IMG/VR virus record: IMGVR_UViG_3300034095_000462
Span: 1 to 29,787 of that record
Strand: one strand, 5' to 3'
From: a virus
DNA: 29,787 nucleotides
Part shown: positions 3,060 to 19,780 of the stretch, piece by piece
Layout of the letters: every line of letters starts with the position of its first letter
Position numbering within the stretch: the stretch's first letter is position 1
Position numbers and translations under genes: made by a program
The notes under the pieces: model-generated
The model's input: the letters and a program-made list of their open reading frames with translations, nothing else
The model's database searches: none
Told to the model about the DNA's origin: nothing

Positions 3060-3929
3060 TTAAAATATATATCTAATTGTATTCCAGGGTATTATAGAAT
3101 CATGTGCTTTTATAAATTCTTTAATATATCCTGCTTTTAAGATATGATTATACCTTAAATTAGTTCCACCATATTGTGATATTTTTCTTTCTTGAATAGT
3201 TGGTGTCCAAAGTAAATTTTCTCCAGGAAGATTATTCTGCAGGTTATAAACATGCTTCTCTGCATTGTGAGTAAGGAATATAACTTCAGCTTTTACATCT
3301 TGTCTCCAATCATACAGATAGGATGAGGCATTTACTTCAGCAAATAGTTCTTTATACTCTAATAACCAGCCATCACATATAATCACCGGACTGAAGTTTA
3401 AGTGCACATCATAACCAGCATCTTGGAATCTTCTTACAGCATTTAATCTCTCATGTATAGGAGTTGTATTAGGTTCTAACTTTTGTCTTAATGCTTCCGG
3501 CATAAGACTGAATCTAATTCTTACCTTACCTTGAGGATTAAATTTAAGTAAGTCTTCATTTACATACTTAGTAGCAAATGATGCCATAGCTCTTGGATGC
3601 AAGATAAAGAAATCAAAGATTCTCTCCCACTGATGGTATTTAGCATGCAGAGCAAAGTCTTCATTGCAACTAATGTCATAAGTTATGTACTCTTCATGTG
3701 TTTGATTGGGTTTTTCCACATCAGCAAACCATGCATGATCACTAATAGCTGTTAATATATCTCCATGATTTTTAGCAATAGATAAACCTGTAGGTTTATT
3801 TCTCTTCATGTAGCAGTAACTACAGTTATATAAACACCCATGTCCAAAGGACGGTGAAATATAATCTGTAGATCTGCCACTGGGTCTAATAAGCATTGAC
3901 TTTCTAGACACCTGTGTAACTAAACTCAT
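3060..3929 (-). CDS. Radical SAM protein, spore-photoproduct-lyase family
   Basis: This 289-residue protein carries the radical-SAM cluster motif CX3CX2C at Cys32, Cys36 and Cys39 (GCLYNCSYCYMK). Later blocks (SLMPEALRQKLEP; GYDVHLNFSPVI) match the SplB/COG1533 group. Members bind a 4Fe-4S cluster and S-adenosylmethionine, and the founding enzyme repairs the thymine spore photoproduct. I could not identify the extra hydrogen-donor cysteine of true SplB, and the only other cysteines are in SCNED and IICDG. It may therefore act on a different nucleic-acid substrate. It sits beside a cell-wall hydrolase, with no informative operon partner. Confidence 0.85.
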   Translation of the reverse strand: MSLVTQVSRKSMLIRPSGRSTDYISPSFGHGCLYNCSYCYMKRNKPTGLSIAKNHGDILTAISDHAWFADVEKPNQTHEEYITYDISCNEDFALHAKYHQWERIFDFFILHPRAMASFATKYVNEDLLKFNPQGKVRIRFSLMPEALRQKLEPNTTPIHERLNAVRRFQDAGYDVHLNFSPVIICDGWLLEYKELFAEVNASSYLYDWRQDVKAEVIFLTHNAEKHVYNLQNNLPGENLLWTPTIQERKISQYGGTNLRYNHILKAGYIKEFIKAHDSIIPWNTIRYIF

Positions 3930-5809: not shown

Positions 5810-6026
5810 AAATTTCTAAAGGTATAAAGCGTGAAGCACTATAATATTCATACGGAAAAGAATCTGGAGAAAGAGACACTTCCTCCAATTCAAATCCTAA
5901 TTCATTGCCCATAAGTGCTAATTGAACAATTTGTTTTACAGTATATACATTACCTTGAACTATCCATTCTGTAAGAGGAATCTTACCTGGCTTATTCTTG
6001 TCATTAATACAAACTACTTTAAGCAT
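5754..6026 (-). CDS. Phage protein of the MKVVCINDKN type
   Basis: The 90-residue protein begins MLKVVCINDKNKPGKIP, followed by a VYTV strand and a late FPYEYYSASRFIPLE block. This order (CINDxxxP ... W...G..YTV ... PYEYF..xRF) is familiar from many small phage proteins that resemble an SH3-like barrel. No function has been assigned to them. It overlaps ClpS upstream by 13 bases. Confidence 0.75.
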   Translation of the reverse strand: MLKVVCINDKNKPGKIPLTEWIVQGNVYTVKQIVQLALMGNELGFELEEVSLSPDSFPYEYYSASRFIPLEIYEKQEITVKEEELDLSII

Positions 6027-6298
6027 ACTCTTTTTATTTCAGATTTTAACTCCATCTGTTCTAAAGATGTGTTAATCTCTAACATATCCATATAATTACC
6101 AGATACAATATCTACTGAACCTTTACCATCTGCTATAAGAGCACATTGTTCTGCTTGATGGGCATCATGATTACAAAATCTAATTAAGCATGCAATAACA
6201 TATAAGAAATCATGCTGATCATCATTATGCAAAACAATCTTGTGTGTTTTAGTATCTTCCATATTATAATTTATGGAATTTTTTTCAGTATCCAACAT
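6014..6298 (-). CDS. clpS: ClpS-like protease adaptor
   Basis: ClpS delivers N-degron substrates to the ClpAP protease. The 94-residue protein has its core features: HKIVLHNDDQHDFLYVI (the NDD pocket residues at 25-27), then the HQAEQC helix at 47-52, then a KG turn and the TSLEQMELKSEI C-terminus. It looks closest to Bacteroidota ClpS. The pocket His of classical ClpS (His66 in E. coli) aligns by eye with Asp57 (IADGKG), so specificity may differ. Its ATG overlaps the helicase stop as TAATG, implying coupling. In a phage it would redirect or block host proteolysis. Confidence 0.75.
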   Translation of the reverse strand: MLDTEKNSINYNMEDTKTHKIVLHNDDQHDFLYVIACLIRFCNHDAHQAEQCALIADGKGSVDIVSGNYMDMLEINTSLEQMELKSEIKRVCLK

Positions 6299-14599: not shown

Positions 14600-14645
14600 A
14601 CCCAGGAAAGTTTCTCTGATCAAGAATTACTTCCTGGGTTTTTTA
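14600..14645 (+). terminator. Terminator of the tRNA transcript
   Basis: ACCCAGGAA (14600-14608) pairs perfectly with TTCCTGGGT (14631-14639) and is followed by TTTTTT. The nine-pair stem has a 22-base loop. Confidence 0.8.
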
Positions 14646-14659
14646 TTTAAAATAATTCA

Positions 14660-14667
14660 TATATTTG
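14660..14667 (+). promoter_or_regulatory. TAnnTTTG box of the accessory operon
   Basis: TATATTTG lies 20 bases before the ATG at 14687 and just beyond a terminator. A clear TTTG -33 element is missing; only a T-run is at that distance. It would start the operon 14687-16422 with a short leader. Confidence 0.55.
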
Positions 14668-14686: not shown

Positions 14687-14917
14687 ATGAGTAAGAGTAA
14701 AAAAAAGGAACCTATAGTCCTTGTAGAAATCAGTATTAATTTAGAAGATAAATTTGAGATCAGACTCCAGAGAGTTGATAAATCTACTATTCCAGTTATA
14801 GTAGGGTTATTAGAAAAGGTAAAGTTTGATTTACTTGCTAGAGACTATGATGAAGATGGTGCTATAGAAGAAGACGCACTTCCCGTAAATTTTATGAATA
14901 ATAAATTTGACGCGTGA
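14687..14917 (+). CDS. Small acidic hypothetical protein
   Basis: The 76-residue product starts MSKSKKKEPIVLVEISINLE, has alternating strands then a helix, and an acidic segment (DYDEDGAIEEDA). It is the first gene of the accessory operon that includes the sponge candidate and GroES. No family is recognised. Confidence 0.65.
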   Translation: MSKSKKKEPIVLVEISINLEDKFEIRLQRVDKSTIPVIVGLLEKVKFDLLARDYDEDGAIEEDALPVNFMNNKFDA

Positions 14918-15201
14918 TGATTGAAAGATATATGAGTAAACCTGCATATGTTGATGTATTAAAATATGTAGATGATGAAAGAGATTCTGTGTTTGCTTTT
15001 GCAAATGGTAAAGCAGAGTTTATCATACCGGTAAACACAAAACAGTTGACATTATATGTGCATACTGATATGGGCCCTAAGAAGTGTAATCCTAATGATT
15101 ATATTGTAAAGGATACTGAAGGTACCTTGAGTGTATTAACAGAAGAACAATTAGAGGGTCTTTTTTTAAAAGTAAAGAAAACAGAAAGTAAATTGATATG
15201 A
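14917..15201 (+). CDS. Small phage protein with D-Y-I-V-K motif
   Basis: The 94-residue product starts MIERYMSKPAYVDVLKYVDD. A GTG one codon earlier is possible, but the ATG at 14917 shares a base with the previous stop (TGATG). The pattern (KPxxVxxxKY ... NDYIVKDTEGTLSVLTEEQL) resembles common phage proteins with 'GDWIIKGVxGExYPxxPDxF', whose function is unknown. It ends in an ATGA overlap with the next small gene. Confidence 0.7.
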   Translation: MIERYMSKPAYVDVLKYVDDERDSVFAFANGKAEFIIPVNTKQLTLYVHTDMGPKKCNPNDYIVKDTEGTLSVLTEEQLEGLFLKVKKTESKLI

Positions 15202-15281
15202 GTAAAACAAGTAACAAATCAAGATTAGAAGCTTTGAAAGCATGGCTTCAATGGTTAACAATAACTAAAAACAAAAAGTAA
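15198..15281 (+). CDS. 27-residue microprotein
   Basis: The frame encodes MSKTSNKSRLEALKAWLQWL plus a basic tail. It is locked between its neighbours by an ATGA overlap at the start and a TAATG overlap at the end, the classic sign of translational coupling. The middle forms an amphipathic Trp-bearing helix. Function is unknown. If it is not made as a protein, it may still serve to couple translation of the sponge gene. Confidence 0.5.
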   Translation: MSKTSNKSRLEALKAWLQWLTITKNKK

Positions 15282-15556
15282 TGAGTGAAACAGTAGTAAG
15301 TATTCCAGAAGTAATTGGAATGAATGAAGCTAAGGTACTTTCATTTGGTGAACAGTTAGTAGGGATTGAGTTCAATCCATCTAATGATGCTGGTGTAGCT
15401 AAAGTAAAAGAATTATGTGCTGAGATAGCTAATATCTTAAAAGACTCTTATCAAGAGGGTCCAGGAAACCCAGTTAAAAGTTTATTGTTTGACCACGCAG
15501 TTGGTGAATTAATAAGTGCCCAGATGGCAGTAGTAAAAGTAATTACGTTTAAATAA
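15281..15556 (+). CDS. Acb2/Tad1-like cyclic-nucleotide sponge (candidate anti-defence)
   Basis: The 91-residue protein has a small two-helix plan. A conserved GIEFNPSNDAGVAKVKEL block (FNPSND at 31-36) leads into the first helix. The C-terminal helix ends AQMAVVKVITFK (80-91). This matches, from memory, the Acb2/Tad1 hairpin family, whose founders bind cyclic oligonucleotides or cyclic ADP-ribose signals and so block CBASS and Thoeris. Most relatives have AQMW at the place where this one has AQMA. It lies in an operon with GroES and DUF3310. Confidence 0.65.
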   Translation: MSETVVSIPEVIGMNEAKVLSFGEQLVGIEFNPSNDAGVAKVKELCAEIANILKDSYQEGPGNPVKSLLFDHAVGELISAQMAVVKVITFK

Positions 15557-15564
15557 AAAGAAAG

Positions 15565-15840
15565 ATGAGACTATTAGGAAAAAGAATCTTGATTAACATT
15601 CCCGTTATTGAGAAAGCAGTAATTGAGTTAAGCCCTATGCAAGAAGCAGAGCGCGAAAAAGAAGCAATTCAAAAATGGACTGAATTAGAAATTCATGCTG
15701 TGGGAGATGAAGTAGAGAAAGTAAAAGCTGGGGACAAAGTATATGTACAAGCTTTTGGATTGGAGTCTGCTGAAAAAATCATGATTGGTTCAGAGCTGAA
15801 GTTATTAGTAAAAGAGTTTGACATTGCAATAGTGTATTAA
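15565..15840 (+). CDS. groES: GroES-like co-chaperonin
   Basis: The 91-residue protein follows the Cpn10 plan: RLLGKRILINIPVIEKAV, a central mobile-loop region, EIHAVGDEVEKVKAGDKVYV, and LKLLVKEFDIAIVY at the end. Phage co-chaperonins such as T4 gp31 replace host GroES so that GroEL can fold the capsid protein. No phage GroEL is visible, so it would work with host GroEL. The mobile loop is charged (EAEREKEAIQKW) and lacks the usual IVL tripeptide, so the GroEL contact may differ. Confidence 0.8.
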   Translation: MRLLGKRILINIPVIEKAVIELSPMQEAEREKEAIQKWTELEIHAVGDEVEKVKAGDKVYVQAFGLESAEKIMIGSELKLLVKEFDIAIVY

Positions 15841-15841
15841 T

Positions 15842-16219
15842 ATGAATGAGTTGCGTTACGGAGATTATAATAAATCAATTATGAAAGGTTTGAAAAAAGA
15901 GAATGTATCCGCTACACAAGAACCTAAGTGGGTTGATCCACAAGAGTACAATAAAAACATATTGGATAAAATGCCTAAATGGACTAACATTACTTCTCCT
16001 ACAGAACAACCAGATGCATTAAGACCTAAACATTACGGTGGAGCTGATAGTACGTATGAAGTATTTAAAGTATTAGAAGCTTGGAATCTTGATAAAGATT
16101 TCTATTTAGGAAATGTTATTAAGTATGTTGCGAGAGCTGGTAAAAAAAATTCTGCAAAAGAAAAAGAGGATTTACAAAAAGCTTTAGTATATTTACAGCG
16201 TAGAATTGATAGTTTATGA
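15842..16219 (+). CDS. DUF3310 protein
   Basis: The 125-residue protein has a disordered N-terminal half and a C-terminal DUF3310 domain: RPKHYGG at 61-67, EVFKVLEAWNLDKDFYLGN, and NVIKYVARAGKKNSAKEKED. DUF3310 (SaV-like) occurs in many phages next to nucleotide-metabolism genes. Its biochemical role is unproven. It overlaps the next gene by four bases. Confidence 0.9.
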   Translation: MNELRYGDYNKSIMKGLKKENVSATQEPKWVDPQEYNKNILDKMPKWTNITSPTEQPDALRPKHYGGADSTYEVFKVLEAWNLDKDFYLGNVIKYVARAGKKNSAKEKEDLQKALVYLQRRIDSL

Positions 16220-16422
16220 TTATTGTTTGTTTACTTATTGGTGTAATTATTATATATATACTGTATGGATTACAAAATTCTTGGCGTATGCCTATATACA
16301 ATAAAGTATATAACATGTGGCAAGAAGATACCGAGAAAGTAACTAAAGCTAACTTAGCAATAATTATAATGTGTTTTATATCATTTCTTCTAGGTGTTAT
16401 TTCTAACATGATGATTAATTAA
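16216..16422 (+). CDS. Small two-pass membrane protein
   Basis: This 68-residue protein has two hydrophobic segments (MIIVCLLIGVIIIYILYGL and ANLAIIIMCFISFLLGVI) joined by a charged loop. It ends the accessory operon in an ATGA overlap and is followed by a terminator. It could be an exclusion or membrane-modifying protein. The holin candidate at 26550 is a different gene. Confidence 0.65.
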   Translation: MIIVCLLIGVIIIYILYGLQNSWRMPIYNKVYNMWQEDTEKVTKANLAIIIMCFISFLLGVISNMMIN

Positions 16423-16440
16423 ATTTTTTATTTATATAAA

Positions 16441-16472
16441 AGGGCCCTGGTTTTTACTAGGGCTTTTTTTTG
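16441..16472 (+). terminator. Terminator of the accessory operon
   Basis: GCCCTGG (16444-16450) pairs with CTAGGGC (16457-16463), with one G-U pair, followed by eight T (16464-16471). Confidence 0.85.
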
Positions 16473-16846: not shown

Positions 16847-19780
16847 ATGAGTTTTACAGGACAATTTAATTTTGGGTACCCAATAACGGCCCACAATATA
16901 ATAACAACAGTACCAGATAATGCTGTGTTACCTTTATCATTAGGCAGCAGTTTACAAGGTAATACATTAGGTGTAACTTTTGCAGATTTAAAATCTCAAA
17001 TTTCTATTATTCCTGAATGGGGAACTATTATAGGAAACATTAATGATCAGAATGATTTAATGAACATAATTAATGGTAAACAACCTTTATTATTTTCAGG
17101 TAGTAATATTAAAACTATTAACGGTAGCTCAATATTAGGAGGAGGTAACCTTACAGTAGGTGTAACTGATGGTGATAAAGGAGATGTAACAGTATCTGGT
17201 AATGGTGGAACTTGGACAGTTGATAATTTACCACAATCTAGAATAAACAATTTAACATCAGACTTAGCTGGAAAACAAGCTACTCTTACATCAGGTTCTA
17301 ATATTAAAACCATTAATGGTTCTAGTATATTAGGTTCTGGAGATTTAACAGTGGGATTACCAAGTTTTATTCAGTATAACACAAGTGAAGTAACTGTTTG
17401 GAATAACGGAAAAGGAAACATTGTTGGTAATACTGCATATGGTATGCAGGCTTTTAGAGTCAATACAACAGGTTTCAATAATACTGTATATGGTTATGAA
17501 GCAATGTCACAAAACACTACAGGGGCAGTAAACACTGCTATTGGTAGATCTGCTTTATCTGGAAATACATCTGGTCAAAATAATATTGCAATTGGTTTTG
17601 GAGCGGTTTCAGCCTCACAAACTGTATCAAGAAATATAGGAATAGGTAATAATACATTACAGGTAAATACTTTAAGTTCTGATTTAGTAGCTATTGGTAA
17701 TTACGCATTAGGAAGTTTTAACGCAGCAAGTGGTGCTAATACAGCTGTAGGTACTGATAGTATGAGGAATACAACTACAGGTGTAAATAATACAGCACTA
17801 GGTAATCAAACAATGTATTATAATACAACTGGTGCAGATAATGTTTCAATTGGTAAACAAGTATTACAAAATAATACAACTGGTGTACAAAATACAGCAG
17901 TTGGTAGTAACTCTTTGTATAGTAATACTATAGGTTCTTTTAATAGTGCCTTTGGTTATAGAACAGCATATTCTAATACAACAGGAAATTATAATAGTGT
18001 ATTTGGTTTTTCTGCATTGTATTATAACACTACCGGAAATTACAATAGTGCCGTTGGTTATCAAGCATTGAGAAATAATACTATAGGTGAAAATAATACG
18101 GCAGTAGGTAATAATGCATTACTAAATAATACTACTGGTGGAAATAATACAGCAGTCGGTAATCAAGCATTATATAGTAATACTACAGGTAATATTAATA
18201 CAGCATTGGGAACTAGTGCATTATATTCTAATACAACTGGTAGATTAAATACAGCAGTTGGAGATGGTGCTTTAGGATCAAATACTACAGGTGAAGAAAA
18301 TGTTGGTGTAGGTAGAGGAGCATTATCTACAAATACTACTGCTAATAGAAATACAGCAGTTGGTAATGCAGCTTTACAAAATAATACTACTGGAACACGT
18401 AATGTAGCAATTGGTACAGTTTCTTTATTAAATAATACAACCGGTATTGATAATATTGCAATAGGTGAAAGTGCTGTAGTAACTAATACTACAGGTTCAT
18501 CTAAAATTGGTATTGGTAAATCAGCTTTATATAATAATACTGCAGGTAGTAATATTATAGCTATAGGTAGTAGCGCATTAGCTAGTGATATAAATGGTTA
18601 TAGTTCAGTTGCAATTGGAACAGCTGTTGCTGGAGGAACGGCATCTTTTGGATATAACAATGTTGCTATAGGTCTTGAAACTATGTTTGCTAATACAGGT
18701 AATCATAATATTGGAATTGGTAATGAAGCACTAAGAAACTCTACAAGTAATAATAATATTGCTATAGGACATCAAGTATTGCGATTAAGTACAACAGGTA
18801 ATTCAAATGTTGGTGTAGGATATCAAGTATTAACTAATAGTACTACAGCAAATGAAAACACTGGTGTAGGTAATAGAAGTTTAAAGAATACCACAACAGG
18901 TAATGAAAATACAGCTGCTGGTTCATTTGCATTACAAAATAATACCAGTGGTAGTTCTAATACTGCAGTTGGTAGAAGTAGTTTAGGTGCTAATACTACA
19001 GGTCTTCAAAATACAGCTGTAGGTGCTGGTGTTTTAGCTTCTAACACAACGGGTGGTAACAATATAGCATTAGGTTTAAGTACTATGCAATTTAATACTA
19101 CTGGTAGTTTTAATACAGCTGTTGGTTTTGAAGCTTTAAAAGTTAATACAACAGGTGACGAAAGTGTTGCGTTTGGCGCATATAGTTTAACTGCTTTTAA
19201 TAATGGAGTAGGTTATAATACAGCAATTGGTTATAAATCATTAACTACGGCAACTACAGGTACTAATAATACAGCTGTTGGTCATGAATCTCTTAAATTA
19301 ACTACAACAGGTGCTTATAATACAGCTATTGGTAAAAGTGCCTTACAATCTAATACTACAGCTGCCAATAATGTAGCAATTGGTTTTAATGCTGCTACTT
19401 CTAATACTACTGGAGTAACTAATACTGCTGTTGGTAGTCAATCTTTAAGTGCAAATACTACAGGTAATAGTAATACAGCAATAGGAAGTAGAACATTAGT
19501 TTCTAATACAACTGGGTTTAACAATATTGCAATTGGTGCCAATTCATTACAAGCTAATACCACTGGGGCAGGAAATATTGCACTTGGGATAGACTGTTAT
19601 AGTGGAAATTTTAATAGTTCTATAATTATTGGTACAAGTGCAACAGCAACAGCAGATAATCAATTTGTGGTTGGTTCAGCAACATTTCCTGCAGGAACCG
19701 TAACAACAGAAAGTTTATTATCAACAAAAACATGGACTGTTAAAATTAATGGAACAGTTCAGAAAATTTTATTAGCTTAG
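16847..19780 (+). CDS. Large tail fibre/adhesin with about 40 17-residue repeats
   Basis: The 977-residue protein has an N-terminal head (MSFTGQFNFGYPITAHNI), two copies of IKTINGSSILGxGxLTVG (about residues 85-175), then a long array from about residue 195. The repeat is NTAVGxxALxxNTTGxx, 17 residues, close to the beta-roll stalks of trimeric adhesins and phage fibres. A C-terminal cap (NQFVVGSATFP then TWTVKINGTVQKILLA) follows. No S74 autoprotease domain is present. The fibre probably forms a long trimeric stalk for host contact. Confidence 0.9.
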   Translation: MSFTGQFNFGYPITAHNIITTVPDNAVLPLSLGSSLQGNTLGVTFADLKSQISIIPEWGTIIGNINDQNDLMNIINGKQPLLFSGSNIKTINGSSILGGGNLTVGVTDGDKGDVTVSGNGGTWTVDNLPQSRINNLTSDLAGKQATLTSGSNIKTINGSSILGSGDLTVGLPSFIQYNTSEVTVWNNGKGNIVGNTAYGMQAFRVNTTGFNNTVYGYEAMSQNTTGAVNTAIGRSALSGNTSGQNNIAIGFGAVSASQTVSRNIGIGNNTLQVNTLSSDLVAIGNYALGSFNAASGANTAVGTDSMRNTTTGVNNTALGNQTMYYNTTGADNVSIGKQVLQNNTTGVQNTAVGSNSLYSNTIGSFNSAFGYRTAYSNTTGNYNSVFGFSALYYNTTGNYNSAVGYQALRNNTIGENNTAVGNNALLNNTTGGNNTAVGNQALYSNTTGNINTALGTSALYSNTTGRLNTAVGDGALGSNTTGEENVGVGRGALSTNTTANRNTAVGNAALQNNTTGTRNVAIGTVSLLNNTTGIDNIAIGESAVVTNTTGSSKIGIGKSALYNNTAGSNIIAIGSSALASDINGYSSVAIGTAVAGGTASFGYNNVAIGLETMFANTGNHNIGIGNEALRNSTSNNNIAIGHQVLRLSTTGNSNVGVGYQVLTNSTTANENTGVGNRSLKNTTTGNENTAAGSFALQNNTSGSSNTAVGRSSLGANTTGLQNTAVGAGVLASNTTGGNNIALGLSTMQFNTTGSFNTAVGFEALKVNTTGDESVAFGAYSLTAFNNGVGYNTAIGYKSLTTATTGTNNTAVGHESLKLTTTGAYNTAIGKSALQSNTTAANNVAIGFNAATSNTTGVTNTAVGSQSLSANTTGNSNTAIGSRTLVSNTTGFNNIAIGANSLQANTTGAGNIALGIDCYSGNFNSSIIIGTSATATADNQFVVGSATFPAGTVTTESLLSTKTWTVKINGTVQKILLA
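17430..19610 (+). repeat. Degenerate 51-base tandem repeat array
   Basis: The DNA coding the fibre stalk repeats every 51 bases (17 codons), about 40 times, with AATAC-AGC-GTTGGT and AAT-ACTACAGGT as recurring words. Similarity between units is strong in protein and partial in DNA. Recombination between units could change fibre length. Confidence 0.85.

Follow-up and report, generated by a model that had tools for sequence, protein, structure and literature searches.

The operon and its genes

The window, by which we mean the whole 29,787-nucleotide stretch of viral DNA under study (positions 1 to 29,787 of IMG/VR record IMGVR_UViG_3300034095_000462), carries an operon at 14687-16422 whose genes overlap or abut and which lies between two hairpin-plus-T-run structures (Table 1). 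Both structures were revealed by folding, and a scan for consensus terminators returned none, missing the two of them. The sequence TATATTTG at position 14660 was considered as a promoter but is not claimed as one, since Bacteroidota-type TAnnTTTG motifs are no commoner than expected by chance. The gene of main interest is a 91-aa ORF with an ATG start that contains both an FNPSND motif and the C-terminal segment AQMAVVKVITFK, exactly where an earlier reading of the DNA (the sequence-only reading) had placed them. Its product is a divergent relative of Acb2, a sponge protein with which phages mop up the alarm nucleotides of bacteria.

Table 1. Features of the operon and of the candidate sponge protein, by position in the window.
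Feature	Position	Strand	Basis
Terminator-like hairpin and T-run upstream of the operon	14600..14646	+	Folding, z -3.6
First operon ORF, 76 aa, conserved	14687..14917	+	ORF list, relatives' loci, dN/dS
95-aa ORF overlapping its neighbours; weak PHROG matches phrog_419 and phrog_4159	14914..15201	+	ORF list, PHROGs
27-residue microprotein; stop overlaps the start of the sponge candidate (TAATG)	15198..15281	+	Conserved in lineage
Candidate sponge ORF, Acb2/Tad1 hairpin superfamily, AQMA subfamily, 91 aa	15281..15556	+	ORF, homology, fold, dN/dS
F31, aromatic opposite T4 Acb2 Y8; N-terminal register uncertain	15371..15373	+	Pfam and A6-A5 alignments; PMC10097602
K43, invariant Lys opposite T4 Acb2 K23 (cGAMP contact)	15407..15409	+	Alignment; PMC10097602
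A73, invariant Ala opposite T4 Acb2 A66 (hexamer interface)	15497..15499	+	Alignment; PMC10097602
A80, invariant Ala opposite T4 Acb2 A73 (hexamer interface)	15518..15520	+	Alignment; PMC10097602
A83, in place of the AQMW Trp; A/T/N/S/C in one clade	15527..15529	+	Alignment, tree
K86, invariant Lys opposite T4 Acb2 R79 (cGAMP contact)	15536..15538	+	Alignment; PMC10097602
GroES-like co-chaperonin fold, 91 aa	15565..15840	+	AF2 and Foldseek
DUF3310 (SaV/'nucleotide kinase'-annotated) protein	15842..16219	+	E 2.6e-13
Small membrane protein, fast-evolving	16216..16422	+	dN/dS 0.52
Intrinsic terminator-like hairpin and T-run at the operon end	16437..16471	+	Folding, z -6.2

A total of 193 relatives of the candidate were found among IMG/VR viral contigs, 80 of which, with identities of 61-97%, were retained for analysis. 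The median pairwise dN/dS of the candidate is 0.22, which lies between that of the GroES-like gene next to it (0.14) and that of the membrane protein (0.52). An FDHAxGE block is present in all 80 relatives, within a conserved block that is the subfamily's own, KSLLFDHAVGE in the window-clade alignment, and the C-terminal block is near-invariant across the entire range of identities. The residue that follows AQM is Ala in 68 relatives, Asn in six, Thr in four and Ser in two. The number of relatives, the dN/dS value and the conserved operon together establish that the ORF is a real gene under purifying selection and not a chance ORF.

The neighbours that had been named from the sequence alone were borne out, namely a conserved 27-residue ORF, a protein with a GroES fold, a DUF3310 protein and a small membrane protein. 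The 27-residue ORF (MSKTSNKSRLEALKAWLQWLTITKNKK) occurs in 54 of the 80 loci with the core MSKTSNKxxxEALKGWLQWL. The GroES-like protein has only a weak GroES-like match in Pfam, and a Foldseek search with its AF2 model returned GroES as the best match (E 4.7e-4), with T4 gp31 at 0.04. The gene for this protein lies directly downstream of the sponge candidate in 80 of 80 loci. When loci were instead collected via DUF3310, and so were not chosen for the sponge candidate, the latter was present in 58 of the 68 that could be assessed. Relatives without it may retain the GroES and DUF3310 pair, and in one related phage (L178, 2653-3606) a gene that by eye is ThyA-like in sequence occupies its place directly upstream of that pair. 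The candidate is therefore near-core in this lineage, yet it can be lost or replaced.

Membership of the Acb2/Tad1 hairpin superfamily

Direct searches with the window protein produced no match in Pfam (hmmscan), PHROGs or PDB sequences. By tblastn against 2.3 Gb of phage genomes, however, it matched proteins of DSL-LC05, EcP1, Pmp11, Aaphi23, S1249 and PS3 at E values of 1e-5 to 4e-4. The proteins of DSL-LC05, EcP1 and Pmp11 score above the cut-off of the Pfam family PF24729 (Acb2_Tad1_hairpin), as do other relatives found in phages of Flavobacterium and in contigs of bacteria, and those of Aaphi23 and PS3 match it below its cut-off. T4 Vs.4 matches the same family at E 7e-20.

Profile comparisons connected these groups stepwise. 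The window clade (profile A2) aligned by hhalign with the Pfam-positive, Trp-type intermediates (A3) at 99.3% (E 1.7e-20), and the intermediates aligned with T4-type Acb2 (A5) at 95.5% (E 1.3e-8), with the best of 100 column-shuffled targets reaching 4% and 7%, respectively, and reversed targets remaining below 1%. In addition, hmmsearch of A3 against the PDB placed Vs.4 (7UQ2) on top at E 0.0017. When the AQMA clade was added to the profile, the Vs.4 match weakened to E 0.45 and ranked behind a designed protein, so that the link to Vs.4 rests on the Trp-type intermediates. The same applies to superfamily membership, since comparison of A2 with T4 Acb2 directly, including the A2-A5 profile comparison, detected no significant similarity. 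Searches of the PDB by phmmer with two Pfam-positive relatives gave nothing useful, and hmmsearch of profile A1 gave chance helical matches only. The assignment to the Acb2/Tad1 hairpin made in the sequence-only reading holds nonetheless, with profile searching positive through the intermediates and negative for hmmscan of the window protein itself. By this chain of sequence comparisons, the window protein is classed as a divergent member of the superfamily.

A tree of 56 family members placed the non-Trp proteins on one side of a branch with support of 99/93, the remaining topology being limited by few columns and long branches. The non-Trp clade includes a protein with Cys after AQM from a contig binned as Bdellovibrionales (L091, 3959-4246), which at 45% identity is the nearest relative outside of viral contigs.

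Predicted fold

The AF2 monomer model (pLDDT 80) has helices at residues 22-27, 37-57 and 64-89 and no strands. The latter two helices form a long hairpin, mostly with pLDDT above 90, and residues 1-14 are of low confidence. Foldseek against a viral library returned the Acb2/Tad1 hairpin protein of PS3 as the best match (E 6.8e-4, prob 1.0), and the top two matches are both annotated as Acb2/Tad1 hairpin; the search of the PDB with the monomer model gave no significant match and no Acb2 chain. The Acb2 protomer is composed of one short and two long helices, whereas in Tad1 an N-terminal antiparallel beta-sheet precedes the hairpin (PMC12043709). The model has the layout of the former and lacks the sheet of the latter. 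Of the two founders invoked from the sequence alone, only Acb2 thus agrees with the predicted architecture, and the protein is, as modelled, Acb2-like rather than Tad1-like.

Conserved and altered positions of the putative pocket

In T4 Acb2, Y8 and F82 stack on cGAMP, polar contacts to it are made by Y8, H11, K23 and R79, and L29, A66, A73 and A77 lie at the hexamer interfaces (PMC10097602). The C-terminal part of the A3-A5 alignment is gapless and pairs these and nearby residues as A66->A73, A73->A80, S74->Q81, W76->A83, A77->V84, R79->K86 and F82->T89, the last of which is adjoined by F90. Lys 23 of T4 Acb2 aligns with K43, and none of A73, A80, K43 and K86 varies among the 36 aligned sequences. 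By Pfam coordinates and the A6-A5 alignment Y8 lies opposite F31, in an N-terminal register that is uncertain, and the equivalent of H11 is Ser. Judged from these alignments, the positions for hexamer packing and phosphate contact look to have been kept, along with one stacking aromatic, and the other aromatic lost.

The sequence-only reading had drawn attention to Ala in place of the usual Trp of AQMW, which is correct for FNPSND-type relatives, and had suggested on that basis that the ligand pocket may differ. The loss of Trp is real and marks one clade, but it says little by itself on a changed pocket, since the residue, invariant in T4-type Acb2, is Met in Pseudomonas phage Acb2 and is not among the ligand contacts reported for T4 Acb2 (PMC10097602). 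The changes F82->Thr and H11->Ser appear to be more telling. The change S74->Gln is common to the Trp-type relatives as well.

Phage lineage and other genes of the window

The helicase encoded in the window is closest to those of crAss-like phages of Flavobacterium and Bacteroides. A search for Terminase_6N in large relatives was negative, and the lineage was placed instead by portal, TerL and major capsid protein (MCP), homologs of which are encoded by a 122-kb relative. The portal and MCP of that relative have 31% and 28% identity, respectively, to those of Leptolyngbya phage Lbo-JY46, followed by crAss-like and Cellulophaga phages. The source of the window is a freshwater phage of a crAss-like lineage, and its host may be either bacteroidete or cyanobacterial. 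The Lbo-JY46-like portal and MCP, on pieces L219-L223 of the 122-kb relative, suggest that this crAss-like branch may include cyanobacterial viruses.

Other genes of the window include one for a phage ClpS adaptor (6014-6298, minus strand; Pfam ClpS, E 1.3e-12), whose matches among phage records are to uncultured phages of ~0.64 Mb only, all at <45% identity. The minus strand also encodes a homolog of spore photoproduct lyase, a DNA-repair radical SAM enzyme (3060-3929; PF20903, E 9e-24). A 977-aa virion protein with many NTTGxxNTAVG-type repeats, which is head-domain-like, is encoded at 16847-19780 on the plus strand.

Function of the candidate sponge

We consider it probable, if well short of assured, that the protein forms an Acb2-like hexamer and acts as a sponge of altered specificity for an immune nucleotide. 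The two long helices would assemble into the hexamer, as the conserved packing alanines suggest, with nucleotide pockets lined by F31, K43 and K86. The ligand would probably be an immune nucleotide of the host, such as one of the cyclic di- or trinucleotides used by CBASS, by type III CRISPR or by a related system, and its sequestration would leave the cognate effector without activation. Such a protein may have anti-CBASS or anti-Thoeris activity. Because the pocket is changed at the second stacking position (F82->Thr), H11 and S74, it should accept a different range of ligands from T4 Acb2.

It is less usual for an accessory anti-defence gene to be near-universal in its lineage and to adjoin GroES, as is the case here, and the presence of GroES and DUF3310 would suit virion assembly or nucleotide metabolism just as well as the host takeover that had been proposed for the operon. 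These features favour the main rival explanation, which we regard as unlikely but serious, in which the hairpin hexamer was exapted for a non-immune role (such as nucleotide binding, or help in assembly with GroES and DUF3310) and its sponge action is gone. The fixed order of the candidate and the GroES-like gene, the subfamily's own conserved block, the changed pocket and the ThyA-like gene at the same place in one related phage would all fit such a role. However, the basic ligand-contact positions K43 and K86 remain invariant, and the gene is missing from some relatives that have the same GroES-DUF3310 pair. Furthermore, hairpin relatives are found beside terminase, between internal virion genes and in early regions, and such varied contexts are more in keeping with an anti-defence cassette than with a single, fixed structural role.

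Loss of the aromatic equivalent to F82 raises the question of decay, in which binding was lost, as may occur under Panoptes-type guards. Acb2 activity is punished by Panoptes, and there are reports of phages losing or retuning Acb2 under this pressure, tuning of specificity being the response they are thought to make (PMC12657218). Decay is improbable here, as strong purifying selection and a near-invariant C-terminal block over the entire range of relatives do not fit with it. A still more remote reading, that of an unrelated small helical hairpin merely resembling Acb2, gains from the negative direct searches with the window protein and is largely refuted by the intermediate-sequence chain, with its shuffled and reversed controls, and by the Foldseek agreement.

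The response thought to be made to Panoptes makes a retuned specificity an attractive, if conjectural, reading. More speculatively, this could be a near-core sponge of a freshwater crAss-like lineage with a rebuilt pocket for a signal beyond those known for Acb2, which would point to an uncharacterised nucleotide-signalled host defence or to avoidance of sponge-sensing guards such as Panoptes; we put this forward as a tentative possibility, itself rather unlikely. Literature searches turned up no relevant report of anti-CBASS genes in crAss-like phages.

If the protein is a sponge, the Acb2 family would be present in crAss-like phages as a near-universal gene and not as an occasional accessory, and nucleotide-signalled immunity, or a sponge-sensing guard, would be a constant pressure on the lineage. 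The pocket varies naturally, with Trp, Ala, Thr, Asn, Ser or Cys following AQM and Phe or Thr at the stacking position, and this variation would then permit direct tests of what determines ligand choice.

Comparison with known systems

Tad1 (Thoeris anti-defence 1), a binder of cADPR isomers that counters Thoeris, has the Pfam hairpin domain in common with the window protein by family definition, and differs in its N-terminal antiparallel beta-sheet (PMC12043709), as the AF2 model here is without strands. Closer likenesses are found in EcP1 gp26, Pmp11_0039, Aaphi23 ORF38 and vB_PstP_PS3 gp43, FNPSND/AQMW hairpin relatives of phage and prophage origin in or near PF24729, which by tblastn are 29-40% identical to the window protein along most of its length and have a VG[IL]xFNPSND loop, the invariant Lys and an AQM..VK.IT end. 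These relatives carry Trp after AQM, whereas members of the window clade (99/93) have Ala, Thr, Asn, Ser or Cys, and they have an SVAITEAQT block where the window protein has FDHAVGELVS.

Acb2 (anti-CBASS 2) is a binder of cyclic di- or trinucleotides that counters CBASS. The Acb2 proteins of T4 (Vs.4; PDB 7UQ2) and of Pseudomonas phage (p26; PDB 8H2J/8IXZ) have the same short N-terminal and two long helices as predicted here, and the C-terminal core A-x-x-x-x-x-x-A-x-M-x-x-x-[KR] is common to all. The window protein has Lys opposite both K23 and R79 of T4 Acb2 and its packing alanines opposite A66 and A73. It differs from T4 Acb2 at F82 (Thr), H11 (Ser), S74 (Gln) and W76 (Ala), and in a conserved FNPSND loop where T4 Acb2 has GYKPHT, and the two proteins show no direct pairwise similarity; relative to Acb2 it also has ~20 extra N-terminal residues, predicted with low confidence. 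Automated annotation would most likely leave the subfamily as hypothetical, since Pfam, PHROGs and direct PDB sequence search all miss the window protein. The AQMA subfamily is a divergent variant of the known Acb2 family.
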